From: an uncultured Bacteroidales bacterium
Lineage (GTDB): Bacteria > Bacteroidota > Bacteroidia > Bacteroidales > Muribaculaceae
Assembly (NCBI GenBank): GCA_902779125.1
Contig: CACZAC010000018.1
Coordinates: 30,426 to 94,425, forward strand
DNA: 64,000 nucleotides
Reading direction: 5' to 3'
A program made the position numbers and the translations under genes. Of this stretch, positions 1,484-48,230 are shown piece by piece. The stretch's first letter is position 1, and each line of letters starts with the position of its first letter. Below the pieces are notes generated by a model. That model did no database searches. It was not told where the DNA came from and saw only the letters and a list, made by a program, of their open reading frames with translations.

Positions 1484-3103
1484 ATGAAGCAGAAGTCCAC
1501 ACGTCAACCCATCTGGTTACCCCTCGCCATAGCTCTGGCGGTGGTGGTGGGCATCTTTATCGGCAGCCGATTCACCGTCAACAAACCCGTTGCCGAGAAC
1601 GACCGTAAACTCAATGCCATCCTCAACCTCATTGCTCAGGACTATGTTGATACGACCAATCTCAAGGACCTCATCGAAATGAGTATCCCCGAGATACTGA
1701 GCAATCTGGACCCACACACAAGTTATTTCAGTGTAGAAGACCTGAAAGCTGCGACCGATGACCTGAACGGGTCGTTCAGCGGCATCGGCATCTCGTTCGT
1801 CATGGTAAATGACACCATCGGCGTTGTTGAAGTCATACCCGGTGGTCCAAGCGAGAAAGTGGGCATCATGGCTGGCGACAAAATCGTCATGATTGACGAT
1901 TCGGTGGCTACAGGTCCTAAAATGAGTAATGGTGAAGTGATGAAACGCCTGCGTGGCAACAAGGGCAGTAAAGTCAAACTGGGCATCAAGCGCCAGAATA
2001 CAAGCAAATTGCTCACGTTCACCGTAACACGTGGCGACATTCCTATCAACACTGTGGACGCCTACTACATGATTGACAAAAACACAGGCTACATTAAAAT
2101 CAACCAGTTCGGACGCCATACCTACGATGAATTCATTACCGCCATGGCAAGCCTTGAAGACGAAGGCGCCAAGCGATATATAATAGACCTGCGAGGCAAC
2201 GGAGGCGGTTTTATGGAGATGGCCGTGCTCATGGTCAACGAGTTCCTGCCTGCCGACCAGCCCATCGTGTTCACCAAGGGGCGCTACAAGCGCGATGACA
2301 GTGAAGTGTGGAGTGACGGCAACGGCTCATTCCAGGATGCCGAGGTGGCAGTGCTTATCGACGAGTTCAGCGCCAGCGCCAGTGAGATTTTTGCAGGTGC
2401 CATGCAAGACAACGACCGAGGTCTGATTGTTGGATGCCGTTCGTTTGGCAAGGGACTGGTTCAGAAGGAGTTTGTACTGCCTGACAGCAGTGCCATCCGC
2501 TTGACCACTGCACGTTATTATACGCCCAGCGGCCGCTGCATCCAGAAGGATTACAAGGAAGGGATGCTCAACTATGAGAAAGAACTCATCGACCGCTATA
2601 CCCATGGTGAGCTTTACAGCCGCGACAGCATGAAGGTGGATAAGAGCCAGGTCTTCACCACAACTCATGGCCGAACGGTATATGGCGGCGGTGGCATTGT
2701 CCCTGATATCTTTGTCGCCCGCGACACCAGCGGCATCACCAACTATTATATCGAAGTCGCTAACGCCGGACTGCTGCAGCGCTATGCCTTTAACTACTGC
2801 AACAACCACCGTGACGCGCTCAACAAGATGGAGGACTACAACCAGTTCCTGAGAACGGCTCCCAGTGATGATGCCCTGACCAAGGACTTTGCCGACTATG
2901 CTGCGGCTAACGGCATTGCTCCACGCTGGTACTACATCAACCTGTCACAGAACGTGATTGTCACCAATCTCAAGGCTCTGATTGCCCGTGACACCTTCGG
3001 CAACCAAGCGTTCTATCCCATCATTAACCGTAATGACAATACTGTTCAGGCCGCCCTCAAGGCCATGAACAAGCACAAGGCAGCCTTTCCCATTACCGAC
3101 TAA
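1484..3103 (+). CDS. S41 family carboxy-terminal processing peptidase (copy 1)
   Basis: This 539-residue protein has an N-terminal membrane anchor or uncleaved signal (residues 10-30), a PDZ domain (about 95-180, with the carboxylate-binding segment SGIGISFV) and an S41 protease core. The catalytic dyad is read as Ser298 in FSASASEIFAG and Lys323 in SFGKG. Their 25-residue spacing equals the Ser430-Lys455 spacing I recall for E. coli Prc. Such proteases trim or degrade periplasmic proteins recognised through the C-terminus. It begins 44 bases after the dCMP deaminase gene and ends 18 bases before a second gene of identical length and layout, so the pair is a tandem duplication. No separate promoter box was seen, so cotranscription with the deaminase is likely. 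Confidence 0.93.
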   Translation: MKQKSTRQPIWLPLAIALAVVVGIFIGSRFTVNKPVAENDRKLNAILNLIAQDYVDTTNLKDLIEMSIPEILSNLDPHTSYFSVEDLKAATDDLNGSFSGIGISFVMVNDTIGVVEVIPGGPSEKVGIMAGDKIVMIDDSVATGPKMSNGEVMKRLRGNKGSKVKLGIKRQNTSKLLTFTVTRGDIPINTVDAYYMIDKNTGYIKINQFGRHTYDEFITAMASLEDEGAKRYIIDLRGNGGGFMEMAVLMVNEFLPADQPIVFTKGRYKRDDSEVWSDGNGSFQDAEVAVLIDEFSASASEIFAGAMQDNDRGLIVGCRSFGKGLVQKEFVLPDSSAIRLTTARYYTPSGRCIQKDYKEGMLNYEKELIDRYTHGELYSRDSMKVDKSQVFTTTHGRTVYGGGGIVPDIFVARDTSGITNYYIEVANAGLLQRYAFNYCNNHRDALNKMEDYNQFLRTAPSDDALTKDFADYAAANGIAPRWYYINLSQNVIVTNLKALIARDTFGNQAFYPIINRNDNTVQAALKAMNKHKAAFPITD

Positions 3104-3121
3104 GTAACACGACTGGCAACA

Positions 3122-4741
3122 ATGAAAAGAAATCTGCCCATCTGGCTTACAATCGCCATCGCTCTGATAGCGTTTGCGGCAGGCTTTATCATTGACCGTC
3201 ATTACATGAATTACTCTTCAAGACATGATGTCAACGACCCCAAGGTGAAAGCCATTCTCGACCTCATCACAGAGGAGTATGTGGATACTTTGAACTTTGA
3301 TGAACTCATAGAGAGGAGCATCCCGTTGATTCTGAGAGGACTTGACCCCCACACCAGTTATTTCGATGCCCAAAATTCCAAGATTTCACGGAATCATCCC
3401 GATGGGGTCATTCCTGACATCGGTGCTGTCCTCATCATCTTCAACGATACGATTCATGTTGAATGTATTGTTCCCGCTGGTCCAAGTGATATAGCCGGCA
3501 TCCTGCCAGGTGACTGTATCGTGAAGATTGACGGGCAACCAACCGACAACATCAAGAAAAACTCAGGTGAGGTCTTCAAACTCTTGAGCGGACCCAATGG
3601 CAGCAAGGTCACGTTGAGCGTGCAACGCCATGGCTACCCCAAAGTTCTTGACTTTACAGTGACACGCAACAGGATTGTAAAGAAAACCCTTGATTCCTAC
3701 TACATGCTTGACAAGAACACGGGATATATCAAGGTCAACCAGTTTGAACGCAACACTTATAAAGAATTTGAGCAGGCTTTAACCCAACTGAAAGACCAAG
3801 GCGCCAAGCGCTTCATGATAGACCTAAGAGGCAATGGCGGAGGCTATATGGAAATTGCGGTGCTCATGGCTAACGAGTTCTTGTCTGAAGGTCAACCGAT
3901 AGTCACCACACGCGGCAGGCGCAAGAAGTACAATCATCCATACAAGAGTGACGGAAAAGGGAAATTCCAGAATGTCGAACTTGCAGTCCTTATCGACGAA
4001 TACAGCGCCAGCGCCAGTGAGATCTTTGCAGGCGCTCTCCAGGATAATGACCGTGCTCTCATCGTGGGTCGTCGCTCCTTTGGAAAGGGTTTGGTGCAGA
4101 ATGACTTCATCCTCTCTGACAGCAGTATTATCCGACTTGCTGTAGCACGCTACTATACCCCAAGCGGCCGCTGCATCCAAAAGAACTACAAGCATCAAGA
4201 GACCCGCTACTATGATGATGAACTGCTGGAACGTTTCAAACACGGCGAACTCTACAACAGGGACAGCCTCAGGATTGACAAGAACCAGGTATTCACTACG
4301 CTGCACGGCCGAACGGTCTATGGCGGTGGCGGCATCATCCCCGACATCTTTGTTGCGCGAGACACGGCAGGAATTACCAATTACTACATTGATGTTGAAA
4401 ATGCCGGTCTGTTACAGCGTTTTGCCTTTACCTATTGCGAGAAAAACCGCGCGACCCTTGAGCAGATGAGCGACTACAAGCAATTCTTGCGTACGACGCC
4501 TATCGATAATGATATTGTCAAAGAATTTGCCGAATTTGCCGCAGCCTACGGCATAGCTCCGCGATGGTTCTACATCAACCAGTCCCGTAATCTGATTTTA
4601 ACCAAGATTAAGGCAATCATCGCCCACGATATCTTTGGTCCAGAGGGCTATTCCTTCATCGTAAACCGCAACGATAACACTGTTCAGGCTGCCCTCAAGG
4701 CATTAAGCAGGCACAAAGCCGCGTTCCCGATTACCGAATAA
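3122..4741 (+). CDS. S41 family carboxy-terminal processing peptidase (copy 2, tandem paralog)
   Basis: At 539 residues this is the same length as the preceding copy, with the same order: membrane anchor (about 6-26), PDZ, S41 core. The dyad is intact (Ser297 in YSASASEIFAG, Lys322 in SFGKG) and the C-terminal half is closely similar, including YYTPSGRCIQK and HGRTVYGGGGI. The PDZ domain has diverged most: the ligand-loop GIGISFV of copy 1 is IGAVLII here, which suggests a different substrate tail preference (inference). It starts 18 bases after copy 1, so the two are probably cotranscribed. The 3' flank is the hairpin-rich gap at 4742-5337. Confidence 0.92.
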   Translation: MKRNLPIWLTIAIALIAFAAGFIIDRHYMNYSSRHDVNDPKVKAILDLITEEYVDTLNFDELIERSIPLILRGLDPHTSYFDAQNSKISRNHPDGVIPDIGAVLIIFNDTIHVECIVPAGPSDIAGILPGDCIVKIDGQPTDNIKKNSGEVFKLLSGPNGSKVTLSVQRHGYPKVLDFTVTRNRIVKKTLDSYYMLDKNTGYIKVNQFERNTYKEFEQALTQLKDQGAKRFMIDLRGNGGGYMEIAVLMANEFLSEGQPIVTTRGRRKKYNHPYKSDGKGKFQNVELAVLIDEYSASASEIFAGALQDNDRALIVGRRSFGKGLVQNDFILSDSSIIRLAVARYYTPSGRCIQKNYKHQETRYYDDELLERFKHGELYNRDSLRIDKNQVFTTLHGRTVYGGGGIIPDIFVARDTAGITNYYIDVENAGLLQRFAFTYCEKNRATLEQMSDYKQFLRTTPIDNDIVKEFAEFAAAYGIAPRWFYINQSRNLILTKIKAIIAHDIFGPEGYSFIVNRNDNTVQAALKALSRHKAAFPITE

Positions 4742-4883
4742 ACCGCGCTTTAACTGCGACCATTTCACCACCAGAAACAATAAAATGATTGTCAATGAGG
4801 GTACTTATTCCATGACTACATACCCAAGCCAGAGACAGTGAAATTGACAGATATCTCTATAATTAATTATTAGTGTCCCTTAA

Positions 4884-5155
4884 AACATCGTAGATGTTAG
4901 CGGTTCGAAGAACCGATTTCAATGTGAAAGACCATGCAAGAACCTCGTAGGGGTTCGCAGCTTGGTCCCTGAACGAGATGGGAACGTGCCTCGAAGAGGA
5001 ACTTTATGATTTCCTGGCATTTTGCAATTGCAAAAGTTCATCTTCGATGCACTATTCACTGGTTATCATGGTCACCAAGCTACGCCCATCTTCGATGGGC
5101 TTGCATGGTGTTTCACACAAAGTCGGGCCTTCGACCCGCCTTGTCTCTCCGAGAC
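4884..5155. repeat. Nested palindrome cluster forming a chain of four-way junctions
   Basis: This fills much of the 596-base gap between convergent genes. Short perfect hairpins with 3-base loops lie at 4884-4898, 4901-4915, 4940-4956 (one G-T pair), 4989-4999, 5039-5049, 5084-5100, 5124-5138 (one mismatch) and 5143-5155. They are arranged symmetrically around long-range stems: 4923-4940 with 5100-5117 (17 of 18 paired), 4957-4966 with 5074-5083 (9 of 10), 4986-4989 with 5049-5052, and 4999-5005 with 5033-5039. The apex holds a 16-base palindrome at 5020-5035. Loops on the left arm are GTA or GAA and on the right arm TTC or TCC. The only open frames across it have no recognisable protein character. 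It could be a folded RNA, a mobile palindromic element or a protein-binding DNA structure. Confidence 0.8.
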
Positions 5156-5275
5156 ATAAAACCAAGTCCCCAAATCGGCAATTTCTAATAACTGATTTAT
5201 TTCCAATTAATTAAACATGATGCTGCTTTTTTACCAGACACCAATAATAATCAATTTGGATTAGGACACAGTTAT

Positions 5276-5324
5276 AATGAAGATGACGAGGCAGAGGTAA
5301 TCTGTCTCGTCATCTTCATTTCTT
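5276..5324. terminator. 20-bp hairpin between convergent genes
   Basis: Arm 5276-5295 pairs with 5301-5320 over 20 bp, with a single G-T pair and the 5-base loop GGTAA. ATTTCTTT follows on the plus side. It lies 14 bases beyond the stop of the minus-strand 3D-like gene. It is probably a transcription terminator, though the T-tracts are weak. Confidence 0.65.
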
Positions 5325-44623: not shown

Positions 44624-45430
44624 TTACTTGGCAGGGGCCCCAAGCAATGAGTCGATGAGTGCCGTCACATCGGCGATAGTGATTTTTGCATCATCTATCA
44701 AGTCGGCATTAAATTTGCTGAATGGAACGACCTCGGTACCGGCCAGATAGTCAACCAAGTCGGCTACGTCAGCAATAGATACCACTCCATCCATGTTCAC
44801 GTCACCCGTAGCTGCAGGTTTGGGGAACACCTCGAGATAAACGATATTAGAGTTGGTGGTCACGCCGTCAACGGTGTAGTGAGTCTGAATACCGATGCGC
44901 CACTGGAAGAAAGGCTCCATGATCACGCCTTCCTCGGCAAGGGCATCCACATTGTTGGTCTTTTTCTCGAAATGAACAAACCAGTACTCAAAGTGAGGCG
45001 TGGAATGATAGGTATCCTTATCATTAAAATCATCATAAAGGAGCAAGAACGGATAAACATTGGTGGTAGGCACATCAAACTCAGGATACTCATCGGGATT
45101 AAAGACAAAAATCTCATCAAAATCGGTGTAGATGCTATAACTGAATTTGTCCTTATCCAGAATCGTATAACCCAGCGTGTGAGTGAAAATCGAGTCTATT
45201 TCAAAACTATAGTCATTGGCGACCAGATTGGACATAATGTCCATTCCATAATGAACCATAAACTGCGAATTGAATTTCCACTCACCATCTCCCGAGTGAA
45301 TGAAAGGCACACCGTCTATCCAGTCCAATTGCCATTCATCGGGGTCAGCAGGAACCGGTACTGTACTTTGAGCCATCGCATTGCCTGCAAGAGCCAGCAA
45401 CATCACGAAAAGTAAAGAAATCTTTTTCAT
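44624..45430 (-). CDS. Secreted protein with C-terminal dockerin-like repeats (1)
   Basis: 268 residues from the ATG at 45430 (MKKISLLFVMLLALAGNAMAQ). The longer open frame to 45538 lacks protein character. A Tyr/Phe/Asp-rich beta domain (about 25-205) is followed by two dockerin-type calcium repeats: GDVNMDGVVSIADVADLVDYL and, more degenerate, NADLIDDAKITIADVTALIDSLLG. The N-domain is unknown but related in layout to the 47586-48230 product (both have an FFxWRIGIQ segment and a TNS-NIVY or YSNIVY-x-EVFP segment before the repeats). No cohesin is visible in the window. Confidence 0.82.
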   Translation of the reverse strand: MKKISLLFVMLLALAGNAMAQSTVPVPADPDEWQLDWIDGVPFIHSGDGEWKFNSQFMVHYGMDIMSNLVANDYSFEIDSIFTHTLGYTILDKDKFSYSIYTDFDEIFVFNPDEYPEFDVPTTNVYPFLLLYDDFNDKDTYHSTPHFEYWFVHFEKKTNNVDALAEEGVIMEPFFQWRIGIQTHYTVDGVTTNSNIVYLEVFPKPAATGDVNMDGVVSIADVADLVDYLAGTEVVPFSKFNADLIDDAKITIADVTALIDSLLGAPAK

Positions 45431-45560
45431 AAACAATGATTGAGTTAAATGATTTATAAATAATGTTAGTTTCTTGAAAAATGGTCTTCTCTGGTTTATT
45501 TTTACTACAAAAAAACATCTTTTTCCGATAATATCCAAATTTTTCCTTGCCTAATTCAAT

Positions 45561-45600
45561 AAAAAGAATGCCTTGCCACCAGGGCAAAGGCATTCTTTTG
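45561..45600 (-). terminator. Terminator after the adhesin-like gene
   Basis: GAATGCC and GGCATTC arms with an inner GCC/GGC pair. A T-run follows on the minus strand. It lies about 50 bases past the stop at 45653. Confidence 0.7.
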
Positions 45601-45652
45601 TTTAATTGGATTCACCTATTAGAAACTACTCCATAGGCTAGTTGATGTTGAA

Positions 45653-47212
45653 TTACTCACCGCCAAGGATCAAGTCAACAAGAACTGCAACATCACCAAT
45701 TGAGATGGTGTCATCACCGTTTACGTTAGCGTTATCCTCGTTGAAGGACTCAACCGTTGCACCAACCAGGTAGTCAATCAGAGTGGTAATGTCGGCAATA
45801 CTTACAACACCATCATTATTCACGTCACCAAGGAGAATAGCACTTTCACCCAGCGTGGTGAACTCAACAGTTTCGCACCAGTTGCTTTCGCTTTCATTGT
45901 TGTAACCCATTACCTCTACCTCATAAGTGGTCTCGGGAGTAAGGCCATCGATGGTGTAGTTGGTGTTGGTAATCTCATTTACTTCAATCCACGGGTTAAC
46001 AGTGCCAATCGAAATATTATCGATGTAAAGCATCCACTGGTCATAAGTGCCATAGTTGCGGAAGACGATGCAACCCTCAGCACCCTCGAATTGATCCAGG
46101 TTAACGGTATATTCAACAGGTGCTACTGTTGACAAGAGATCTTCTTCAAACAGAGGAGTCAGTTCATCACCAATCATGGCATAAACCATAAGGTTCTCGG
46201 GATAATAGTCTGATCTACCCCACAAGGTAAACTTGAGCTCACCCTTCAAGGGCAGGTCAGGAGTACCAAGCCAGTTATCGGGCGAGCACACACCAACACC
46301 GCTTATGTATGAACCAGAGCCAAGGCAAAGGTCAGTTTGACTATCGTCTGAGTAATACAGACCCCAGTCGTTGCCGTCTTCATCAGCATCATAGACCCAC
46401 CAGCCTTCCATTTCACTCTCATAGCTATCGAGGGGGAAGGTCCACGCCATACCGGTGGATTTTTCCCTGTAGCGGAGGTTCCAACCAGTAGCATTCTCAT
46501 CGGCAGCCCACTCTACCAAAGCAGAAGTGCTAGCAGGAGTAACGGCAATCTCAGGAACTACAGGAGCATTGGGATCATCGATCTCCACGTCAGTCTGGTC
46601 ATTACCATTGGAGCCTAATGTAATGGTGAAGTGGTATGCGCAACCGCTCTTGAACTCGAAGTCATCACCACGGCCACCAGCACTACCATTCTGAGAAGCA
46701 ATCCAGAGCCTGTCACCAGGAGTGGGGTTAACCATGACATAGTCATAGGTGCCAGCGGGAATCAGAATAGTCACACTGCCGTCAAAGACAATGTTCTCAG
46801 TATTCAGATCGTTGTCGGCATTTTCAGGAATCTTGTACTCAAAATTGGCATAATCACCAGCGAAAGTACCCGAACCACCAGCTGCCTCAAATTCAACACC
46901 ATAAGCGGTAGCATCGGCATCGAGCAGCATCTGGTAGCCGCTGTAATCTGGATTATCAGGATCCGTGTTCCATACTTGATGGGCTTCAAGAGTAACTTGT
47001 GCATAACCTTCAGGAACATCAGCCTTTGCAGGTGCTCTGAATGCAATGGGCTTAGCGGTAGACAATACATTAGTGTACTTTGCATTCAGCTCAACCTTAG
47101 CCTTGCTGGTAGCCTGTTTTGAAACCTTGCTCTGAAGCTGAGACTTGGTAATACCTGCACTGGCAGATACAGCAACTGCCATGCCTAAGAGTAAAAACAA
47201 AAATTTTTTCAT
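45653..47212 (-). CDS. Secreted DUF2436 / cleaved-adhesin / Fn3 / dockerin-like protein (2)
   Basis: 519 residues from the ATG at 47212 (MKKFLFLLLGMAVAVSASA). The frame back to 47365 spans the promoter and is not protein-like. In order: a short linker; a DUF2436 domain as in Porphyromonas gingipains and HagA (GYQMLLDADATAYG, YDYVMVNPTPGDRLWIAS); then Fn3 strands (ALVEWAADENATGWNLRYRE); a cleaved-adhesin/MAM-type jelly-roll (WWVYDADEDGNDWGLYYS to WMLYIDNISIG); the remaining Fn3 strands (YTIDGLTPETTYEVEVMGY); and two dockerin repeats. It is probably a surface or secreted adhesin. The split Fn3 with a domain inserted in it is unusual. Confidence 0.82.
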   Translation of the reverse strand: MKKFLFLLLGMAVAVSASAGITKSQLQSKVSKQATSKAKVELNAKYTNVLSTAKPIAFRAPAKADVPEGYAQVTLEAHQVWNTDPDNPDYSGYQMLLDADATAYGVEFEAAGGSGTFAGDYANFEYKIPENADNDLNTENIVFDGSVTILIPAGTYDYVMVNPTPGDRLWIASQNGSAGGRGDDFEFKSGCAYHFTITLGSNGNDQTDVEIDDPNAPVVPEIAVTPASTSALVEWAADENATGWNLRYREKSTGMAWTFPLDSYESEMEGWWVYDADEDGNDWGLYYSDDSQTDLCLGSGSYISGVGVCSPDNWLGTPDLPLKGELKFTLWGRSDYYPENLMVYAMIGDELTPLFEEDLLSTVAPVEYTVNLDQFEGAEGCIVFRNYGTYDQWMLYIDNISIGTVNPWIEVNEITNTNYTIDGLTPETTYEVEVMGYNNESESNWCETVEFTTLGESAILLGDVNNDGVVSIADITTLIDYLVGATVESFNEDNANVNGDDTISIGDVAVLVDLILGGE

Positions 47213-47362
47213 AAAACAATTAATTTTGGTTAATAATGAGTTGGAATAAAAAAAGGTAATCTTCATGTTTGGGTTTATACGGCTTCCAAATTCAGGGGGC
47301 AAATCACTGTCAGGAGACAGTAAGGGAAAAACTCGAATTTGGGCGCTTTGTATAAATTTCTG

Positions 47363-47370
47363 CAAATATA
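47363..47370 (-). promoter_or_regulatory. Bacteroidetes -7 promoter box
   Basis: TATATTTG on the minus strand, about 150 bases before the adhesin-like gene start. This implies an unusually long leader. The 373-base gap 47213-47585 holds this box and the hairpin at 47489-47528. Confidence 0.55.
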
Positions 47371-47488
47371 GCGCTTTTTTTTAAAAACAAATTTGAATTT
47401 GACATGTTTTTTTTAACAAAAACAGGAAAAATTAATATAACTATTATTTTCGGTAATAATTGTTTTGCAAATTTAGAGTACCACAAGC

Positions 47489-47528
47489 AATGAATGCCTT
47501 GGCTCATTTGGAAGCCGAGGCATTCATT
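47489..47528 (-). terminator. Hairpin after dockerin gene 3
   Basis: AATGAATGCC and GGCATTCATT arms with inner GGCT/AGCC pairing, about 60 bases past the stop at 47586. The T-tract is poor, so it is a probable rather than certain terminator. Confidence 0.55.
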
Positions 47529-47585
47529 CATTAATTAAATATATCAGTTTACCCGAAAGAACAGAGTTCCATCGTCAAACTATGC

Positions 47586-48230
47586 TTACTCTGCCTTGTT
47601 AACCAACATATCGATCAGAGCAGTGACGTCAGCAATTGAGATGTTCGCATCACCATCAACGTCGGCGTTAGCCGTATTGATGGCAATATTGGCATTAAGC
47701 AGGTAGTCAATCAGAATGGTCACATCACTGATACTTACTTCGTTGTCGCCATTCACGTCACCGGGCATGCCTTCGTGGGGGAATACCTCGGTATAGACAA
47801 TGTTGGAATAGGTCTTGCTGTTGTCCTCATTAAGGTAAACTACCTGGATACCGATACGCCATGTGAAGAAGGGCTCAAAACCCTCGGCATTGGTGCGATA
47901 GAAATAGGTATAAGTCGCGCGGAAGTCCACACCCGAACTAAAAATCCAGTAGTAAATATCCGTCTGGTTACCATACAAATCATCATAGGAGTAAACGGCA
48001 TCGTCAAAGGTAAACAACTGGTCGTTGTCGGTATAAACACGATAGGCCATGTTTTCCAGCACGAGGGGATTGCCTTCGGTGTCCACCTGAGGCAAGGAAT
48101 ACATGAGACGGCTAAAACCGCTCTCATCACCACAGTCATACCATGATACATTGGTGGGATCAGCAGGAGTAGCAGCTACAGCATTGGCAGCAATAAACAG
48201 ACCTGATAAAAGCAAGAAAAATTTCTTCAT
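47586..48230 (-). CDS. Secreted protein with C-terminal dockerin-like repeats (3)
   Basis: 214 residues: signal peptide (MKKFFLLLSGLFIAANAVAA), a beta-rich domain of about 130 residues of unknown family, and two well-conserved dockerin-type repeats at the C-terminus (GDVNGDNEVSISDVTILIDYLL and NADVDGDANISIADVTALIDML) with the Asp/Asn calcium ligands in place. The N-domain shares FFTWRIGIQ and YSNIVYTEVFP with the 44624-45430 product, so these two flank the adhesin-like gene as relatives. A -7 box lies at 48366-48373. Confidence 0.82.
   Translation of the reverse strand: MKKFFLLLSGLFIAANAVAATPADPTNVSWYDCGDESGFSRLMYSLPQVDTEGNPLVLENMAYRVYTDNDQLFTFDDAVYSYDDLYGNQTDIYYWIFSSGVDFRATYTYFYRTNAEGFEPFFTWRIGIQVVYLNEDNSKTYSNIVYTEVFPHEGMPGDVNGDNEVSISDVTILIDYLLNANIAINTANADVDGDANISIADVTALIDMLVNKAE

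Follow-up and report, generated by a model that had tools for sequence, protein, structure and literature searches.

We analysed a 64,000-nucleotide stretch of DNA (the window) from an uncultured Bacteroidales bacterium of the Muribaculaceae (assembly GCA_902779125.1, contig CACZAC010000018.1, forward strand). Between two convergent genes of this window lies a dense cluster of short palindromes, which is part of a 379-bp element at positions 4868–5246 (Table 1). To its left are two tandem genes of 539 residues each (1484–3103 and 3122–4741), the DNA of which is 76–77% identical over parts and which we take to be S41-type peptidases by their appearance. They are followed at approximately 4799–4858 by an apparent remnant of a small lipoprotein-like gene; this gene looks intact at the same place in a relative (L226), and the element was inserted at its end. 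To the right of the element, a strong inverted repeat with a T-rich tail (5276–5320), whose pairing congeners keep with changes in both arms (for example, L229), is probably the terminator between the convergent genes. A promoter search found one candidate, compared with 1.4 expected. Far from the element, at 44637–47762, a 71-nt repeat occurs in four copies with 61–72% identity to the reference copy.

Table 1. Coordinates of the 379-bp element and its duplicated flanks, in positions of the window.
Feature	Position	Strand	Basis or remark
Left target-site duplication, ATAATTAAT	4859–4867		8 of 9 positions identical to 5247–5255
Left terminal inverted repeat, TATTAGTGTCCCTTAAA, IS4-family type	4868–4884	+	End motif common to IS4-family elements in congeners
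Left four-hairpin unit (H0-H1-P2/H2-H3), 'near' type	4885–5006	+	Covariance model match 4885–5005, 122.7 bits; 90-unit alignment
Hairpin H0, loop GTA	4885–4897	+	Helix 1 of the alignment fold
Hairpin H1, loop GAA	4901–4915	+	Helix 2 of the alignment fold
Stem P2 (GACCA/TGGTC, GC/GC, unpaired bases) around H2 (4940–4956, loop GTA)	4930–4967	+	Helices 3 and 4 of the alignment fold
Hairpin H3, loop GAA	4986–5002	+	Helix 5 of the alignment fold
Right four-hairpin unit, inverted, 'tail' type	5032–5156	−	Covariance model match 5033–5155, 123 bits
Tail from right unit to right terminal repeat, A+T-rich by eye	5157–5229		Asymmetry common to the 377–380-bp copies
Right terminal inverted repeat, TTTACCAGACACCAATA	5230–5246	−	End-motif matches
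Right target-site duplication, ATAATCAAT	5247–5255		Flank comparison

The original prediction, made from the sequence of this locus, had placed eight hairpins and several nested long-range stems at 4884–5155 and read them as a chain of four-way junctions. The hairpins and stems are present where it put them, with 77% complementarity between the arms 4923–4966 and 5074–5117. Folding of 4870–5165 yielded −124 kcal/mol on the + strand (dinucleotide shuffles, −78.0, s.d. 5.1; z = −9.1) and −120.3 kcal/mol on the − strand (z = −8.3), and none of 200 dinucleotide shuffles was as stable on either strand. The cluster is thus real, although the element that contains it is wider, as the terminal repeats and 9-bp duplications fall outside the range first quoted. 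The eight hairpins regroup into two inverted copies of a single four-hairpin unit, both matched by one covariance model (Table 1). In the 377–380-bp copies of the element, one unit lies 16–17 bp from one end and the other about 88–90 bp from the opposite end.

What is conserved is one local fold per unit rather than the long-range stems. Across 10 of the 11 elements of this size (L032 was left out, here and in the unit tree described below), Watson–Crick pairs within the unit were kept in 582 of 600 cells, compared with 437 of 600 for complementarity from unit to unit at the same columns. We therefore ruled out the long-range junction chain as the functional fold on the basis of these cross-unit mismatches; it was predicted because the unit is present as two inverted copies. 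For a single unbroken strand, pairing between the units is predicted to be more stable (−121.6 kcal/mol) than two separately folded units (−74.9 kcal/mol), and it may also form in a fully single-stranded element.

Miniature inverted-repeat elements (MITEs) of the IS4 family have terminal inverted repeats, a 9-bp duplication and a uniform length, and contain no transposase gene. The window element has such ends, a 9-bp duplication, uniform length and no transposase gene. Its terminal repeats are of IS4 type (TATTAGTGTCC), the ends of this outer layer being NATTAGTGTCC with a 9-bp duplication, and the copies read in the same genome have ATTAGTGTCC and its complement in common. Allowing up to two mismatches, a search of this genome with a 16-base end pattern gave 23 matches, compared with none for the reversed pattern. 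At the ten end-repeat matches read there, no transposase was seen beside the repeat, and the autonomous element was found in a congener instead (L180). Its ends, of the same kind, surround a protein of 413 residues; this protein contains DDE_Tnp_1 and DUF4372 domains and scores 177.4 bits for the NCBIfam IS4 family, above the cut-off of 115. The 9-bp duplication of L180 is perfect. Membership of the window element among the IS4-type MITEs follows from its ends and the length of its duplication, both of which are those of the autonomous IS4-family element. The IS4-family elements L207, L208, L210, L211 and L212 likewise combine the end motif with a perfect 9-bp duplication; two IS4-like elements have no good duplication (L209, 3/9; L217, 2/9). 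Relatives of the L180 transposase were found in 20 of 61 genomes, with no match in the genome of the window (assembly 90.67% complete).

In total, 34 candidates bounded by such ends, some of them with a common end, had a mean 9-bp flank match of 6.1, compared with 3.4 when shuffled (highest of 1,000 shuffles, 4.4). Eleven of the 34 are unit-bearing elements of 377–380 bp, five of them from the genome of the window. In eight of the eleven, at least 7 of the 9 flank positions agree; the other three have 6, 3 and 2 matching positions. A flanking target-site duplication, which the original prediction had proposed to look for, is present at the window copy (9 bp, 8 of 9 positions identical; Table 1). 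An empty site is found in the relative L226, where 9 bp (AAAATCTAT) stand between ATATCTCT and TTGGATTAGG, with the same flanks as the window copy. Eight other congeners were compared at this locus: in seven, no more than a short spacer separates the same two genes, and one (L233) differs upstream.

We aligned 90 units over 137 columns. Two are those of the window; the other 88 come from a set of 98 less similar units among 126, from which ten (one of them a copy of a window unit) were dropped by hand without a fixed rule. The local fold of the approximately 124-nt unit comprises five helices and is paired in 98.6% of 2,692 cells, with changes on both sides in 18 of 30 pairs, so that homologues keep the local stems of the cluster. 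None of 500 shuffles reached any of five fold measures and slid versions paired in 34–47% of cells; the shuffles do not remove the relatedness between units, and the slid versions keep it. At the outer pair of P2, for example, we counted 45 C–G, 44 G–C and one G–U among the 90 units. This covariation, read from the alignment, supports a local fold for each unit. By inspection, the 90-unit alignment contains no conserved GTAG or GTGG (a GT[AG]G tag at the hairpin foot), and no GTAG-type guide was seen.

The unit is widely dispersed in the assemblies compared, most of which are incomplete. A sequence search with the window segment matched 29 pieces in its own genome; among 61 genomes of the genus, its own included, 45 had a match. 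At an E value of 1e-5, the covariance model returned at least 833 matches, some of them weak. These come from 89 of the 101 congeneric genomes searched (again including its own), and the other 12 gave none. In distant congeners, units are single or in inverted pairs, with no IS4 ends as far as seen. In three congeners (L018, L246 and L247), a solo unit devoid of IS4 ends stands before the same gene, with no duplication seen at it, and this unit was not seen there in eight other congeners read. In two of the three (L018 and L246), a short tandem array of H0-H1-like hairpins, of different length in each, precedes the solo unit. Stop-free frames of at least 150 amino acids, in genomes without annotated genes, cover 18 of 126 units overall and 1 of 21 examined in the genome of the window. 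By eye, four copies in that genome (L003/L013, L008, L009 and L010) have the same insertion of about 75 bp in one unit, at H2, as though a subfamily had been copied together with its insert.

At three loci, open frames lie beside the units, and the two proteins scanned are Y1_Tnp transposases (PF01797; E = 1e-20). A search for such genes matched 81 of the 101 genomes. We sorted the proteins by bands of identity to one 147-residue query rather than by a protein tree: group A, at least 56%; group B, 49–53%; group C, 33–47%. For group A, 30 loci (L075–L104) were examined from 34 listed places at 61% identity or more; for groups B and C, 20 places each were hand-picked among the matches listed, of which one (L106, 56%) was moved to group A and has both flanking units, leaving 19 and 20. 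Units stand inverted on both sides of the group A gene at 27 of the 30 loci, at mostly similar spacing: upstream units end mostly 56–75 bp before the gene (25 bp in L102) and downstream units start 2–22 bp past it (85 bp in L104). Two of the three exceptions (L100 and L103) have an upstream unit only, on a contig that ends inside the gene; in the third (L101), which has aberrant distances, a unit directly adjoins a 5′-truncated gene, as if inserted into it. By contrast, this two-sided arrangement was found at none of the 39 loci of groups B and C, which yielded one weak upstream match (L114) and two matches about 290–420 bp downstream (L110 and L124). Unit matches per genome, counted as minimum values, have a median of 13 in the 30 genomes with a group A gene and 2 in the 71 without one (Mann–Whitney p = 1.3e-7, relatedness not controlled). 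Many matches also occur in genomes in which no group A gene was found, namely G063 (at least 35), G077 (at least 33, weak scores) and the genome of the window (at least 27). In the latter (90.67% complete), the search for a group A gene returned only a 41-residue match of 49% identity.

Although groups B and C lack this two-sided arrangement, most of their genes have flanking inverted repeats of their own. These beat all 20 shuffles at 16 of 19 loci in group B and at 20 of 20 in group C, and the hairpin layout of several group B and C flanks read is similar. The flanking repeats of group A did so at every one of 28 loci, a set that omits the short loci L079, L100 and L103. Among 17 more distant loci with taxonomic titles (L158–L174), 14 were tested and 11 beat all 50 shuffles, some narrowly and including one from a Planctomycetaceae metagenome-assembled genome (MAG); L158, titled Muribaculaceae, may be of the present genus. 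The titled loci with group A genes (L145–L157) are from Bacteroidales MAGs (five Muribaculaceae, one Prevotellaceae and seven Bacteroidales only), some of them named after rumen or omasum.

Most of the hairpin loops follow a rule that is strongly biased to one strand. The 126 units contain 427 triloop hairpins, of which 370 read C(GNA)G on the sense strand, each of the four bases being found at the middle position, and 5 read TNC; on the gene-ward strand, GNA and TNC number 44 and 0 of 80 in group B flanks and 38 and 4 of 64 in group C flanks, counts that are not independent, as units descend from one another. GNA triloops form unusually stable DNA mini-hairpins (Yoshizawa et al. 1997, as cited in the available text of PMC6479982). 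Because such loops are stable as DNA and biased to one strand, the bias points to stable single-stranded DNA hairpins, and to single-stranded DNA as the form that would be recognised.

In the unit tree, built from units of Y1 loci and MITEs (75 rows of few columns, with many weak forks and a bootstrap that did not settle), upstream and downstream units cluster by side (none of 500 shuffles was as low). The near-type units of 10 MITEs form one clade (97/97), and each of these MITEs pairs two different unit subtypes. This pattern fits descent from one ancestral MITE that would have been made from a two-sided Y1 locus after loss of the gene. Within 500 bp of 70 Y1 loci, we found no composite element in which a Y1 gene and units are combined with paired IS4 ends; four loci had a single loose match to an end.

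Other elements combine the same IS4-type ends with other interiors. A second MITE family, with four copies in the genome of the window (L027, L033, L035 and L036) and two in congeners (L203 and L204), matches DNA beside Y1 genes of 33–37% identity (L142–L144; best E = 3.5e-17). Taking the best four rows per locus, L142 and L143 have matches both upstream and downstream of the gene, the upstream one in L143 coming from L204, a copy in a congener, and L144 has a downstream match. Matches near L127 and L141, and at a greater distance in L078, are weaker. To judge from these matches, Y1 units seem to have been captured between IS4 ends at least twice. The genome of the window also contains a third kind of element, in which such ends enclose yet another interior: L041, which is 260 bp long and has a perfect 9-bp duplication. 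By eye, L030 and L040 in the same genome have their right part in common with it.

The Y1 proteins have the HUH motif at 70 of 70 loci of groups A–C and Y---Q--HH (YxxxQxxHH) at 69. The Y1 protein shows weak similarity to two chains of known structure that are named transposase (E = 3e-5 and 5.5e-4), and it stays below the cut-offs of both NCBIfam models compared, at 51.2 bits for IS200 (cut-off 55) and 23.3 bits for REP_Tyr/RAYT (cut-off 80). We rejected a canonical RAYT (class 2 TnpAREP) as the cognate protein on this last score and because the signature is Y---Q--HH and not of the Y---NP type. In the accessible text of Quentin et al. 2018 (PMC6006769), TnpAY1 subclass 1.2 has the signature Y---Q--HH, the motifs DH[IV]H and WQ and about 148 residues; it has 'no' under REP in a table and is said generally to have no typical IS200 end structures. 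Here, NH[IV]H replaces DH[IV]H throughout groups A and B (31 and 19 loci, respectively), DH appears in 15 of 20 group C proteins, and WQ occurs in 1 of the 12 rows listed (L141) and in none of the group A rows among them. Since group A departs from DH[IV]H and WQ, we describe its proteins, from sequence comparison, as similar to subclass 1.2 and claim no membership.

The best explanation, to which we give a probability of roughly 80%, is that the element has two layers: a REPIN- or TIRtron-like Y1 substrate that travels as an IS4-type MITE. The outer layer would be a double-stranded element moved in trans, as a MITE, by an IS4-family DDE transposase. The inner layer, the inverted pair of approximately 124-nt units, would be the cognate sites of an HUH/Y1 transposase akin to TnpAY1 subclass 1.2. 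Once exposed in single-stranded form, such as in the lagging-strand template, the sense strand of a unit would fold into four mini-hairpins, mostly C(GNA)G, and a bulged stem; the Y1 enzyme would bind and recognise this fold, cut with its catalytic tyrosine and rejoin, and such cutting and rejoining would mobilise and spread the units as in REP/REPIN or TIRtron systems. The window copy is probably an inactive resident now, because neither a matching Y1 gene nor an L180-type IS4 transposase was found in its own genome (90.67% complete).

Of the three identities that the original prediction had offered, a transposable palindromic unit is thus favoured over a structured RNA or a cruciform-forming DNA signal: copies are dispersed, the element has terminal repeats and 9-bp duplications, a relative has the empty site, and the units are associated with transposase genes. 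We regard it as improbable that the units act as RNA, be it a structured non-coding RNA, a terminator or an mRNA-stabilising structure between the convergent genes. The strong fold on both strands would suit such a role, H1 of the right unit matches a terminator-like pattern on the − strand, and the upstream units, mostly about 55–75 nt before the Y1 start codon, could be transcribed. Nevertheless, the whole window contains no Rfam match at the gathering score, on which ground we rejected a structured RNA family, and a stronger terminator candidate lies outside the element at 5276–5320. Moreover, G–U pairs account for only about 51 of about 2,654 paired cells, which we take to be low for RNA; the loops obey the rule for DNA mini-hairpins and strongly favour one strand; and the inverted flanking of transposase genes and the varying presence at one locus fit mobility better.

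It is very unlikely that the element is a plain IS4-type MITE in which hairpins were merely caught between the ends and the Y1 enzyme has no role. Units occur singly or in pairs without IS4 ends, including the solo unit of three congeners, and they flank a group of Y1 genes, which indicates that the inside derives from a Y1 system even if MITE transposition is the only way in which today's copies move. The uniform size of the 377–380-bp copies and the single clade of near-type units, which suggest the spread of one ancestral element, and the lack of a match for the Y1 gene in the genome of the window would agree with a plain MITE. The variation between relatives in the presence of the unit at a given locus, together with the 12 genomes that have no model match, also makes us consider it very unlikely that the unit is a domesticated, REP-like chromosomal site with a structural role, bound by gyrase, IHF or another host protein, even though 20 of the 21 units examined in the genome of the window lie in no stop-free frame of at least 150 amino acids and binding of such host proteins is stated for REPs in the available part of PMC6006769.

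Viewed as a two-layered element, the locus resembles several described systems. The original prediction knew of no named element with this architecture: its kind does have names (REP/REPIN and TIRtron), and we found no description of this particular element in the open-licence literature searched. As far as the accessible text goes, REP/BIME/REPIN systems with their RAYT (TnpAREP) comprise inverted palindromic pairs in many copies and one or a few HUH/Y1 genes flanked by units (PMC6006769, PMC8266576); many copies and inverted pairs are also seen here. They differ in having the GTAG/GTGG tag, which we did not see, and one hairpin per unit rather than four, and the present protein is nearer to the IS200 than to the RAYT model, below both cut-offs. 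In TIRtrons (TIRYTs), as the available text describes them, the Y1 tyrosine transposase gene is flanked by non-GTAG inverted repeats, some of them self-complementary and some also scattered, either as dimers or in clusters (Di Nocera and colleagues 2013, PMC3733652). Here too, a Y1/HUH gene is flanked by inverted repeats that are also dispersed. However, TIRtron genes are called RAYT-like in that source and probably match TnpAY1 subclass 2.1, as suggested in the text of PMC6006769, whereas the present protein is of the Y---Q--HH type and each repeat, about 124 nt long, comprises four hairpins with mostly GNA triloops. Subclass 1.2 itself shares Y---Q--HH, a length of about 148 residues, few copies per genome and Bacteroidetes among its hosts, according to the same partial source (PMC6006769), in which it is listed without REP, whereas here inverted hairpin units flank most of the genes examined; NH[IV]H in groups A and B and the lack of WQ in the listed group A rows also set the present proteins apart. 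From IS4-family MITEs, the element differs by its inside, an inverted pair of the flanking units of another transposase.

A broader reading, to which we give somewhat less than even odds, is that these loci represent an undescribed type of single-stranded DNA transposition system in the Bacteroidota. Subclass 1.2 or 1.2-like Y1 enzymes would each have their own multi-hairpin unit of about 110–130 nt, with shared architecture, divergent sequence and strand-biased C(GNA)G loops, and pairs of these units would repeatedly have been captured by IS4-family ends, giving hybrids of two unrelated chemistries. We hold this reading lower because group A departs from two published subclass 1.2 motifs.

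For annotation, the locus serves as a warning, as such hairpin arrays resemble structured RNAs. The approximately 124-nt unit offers a concrete candidate substrate with its conserved bases marked, and with it a proposed DNA partner for HUH transposases that resemble a group listed without REPs. The one-strand GNA triloop rule, recurring at groups with different flanks, is a comparative sign of a selected single-stranded DNA fold. Finally, the IS4 hybrid suggests that the recognition sites of one transposon may spread by means of another where their own enzyme is missing.
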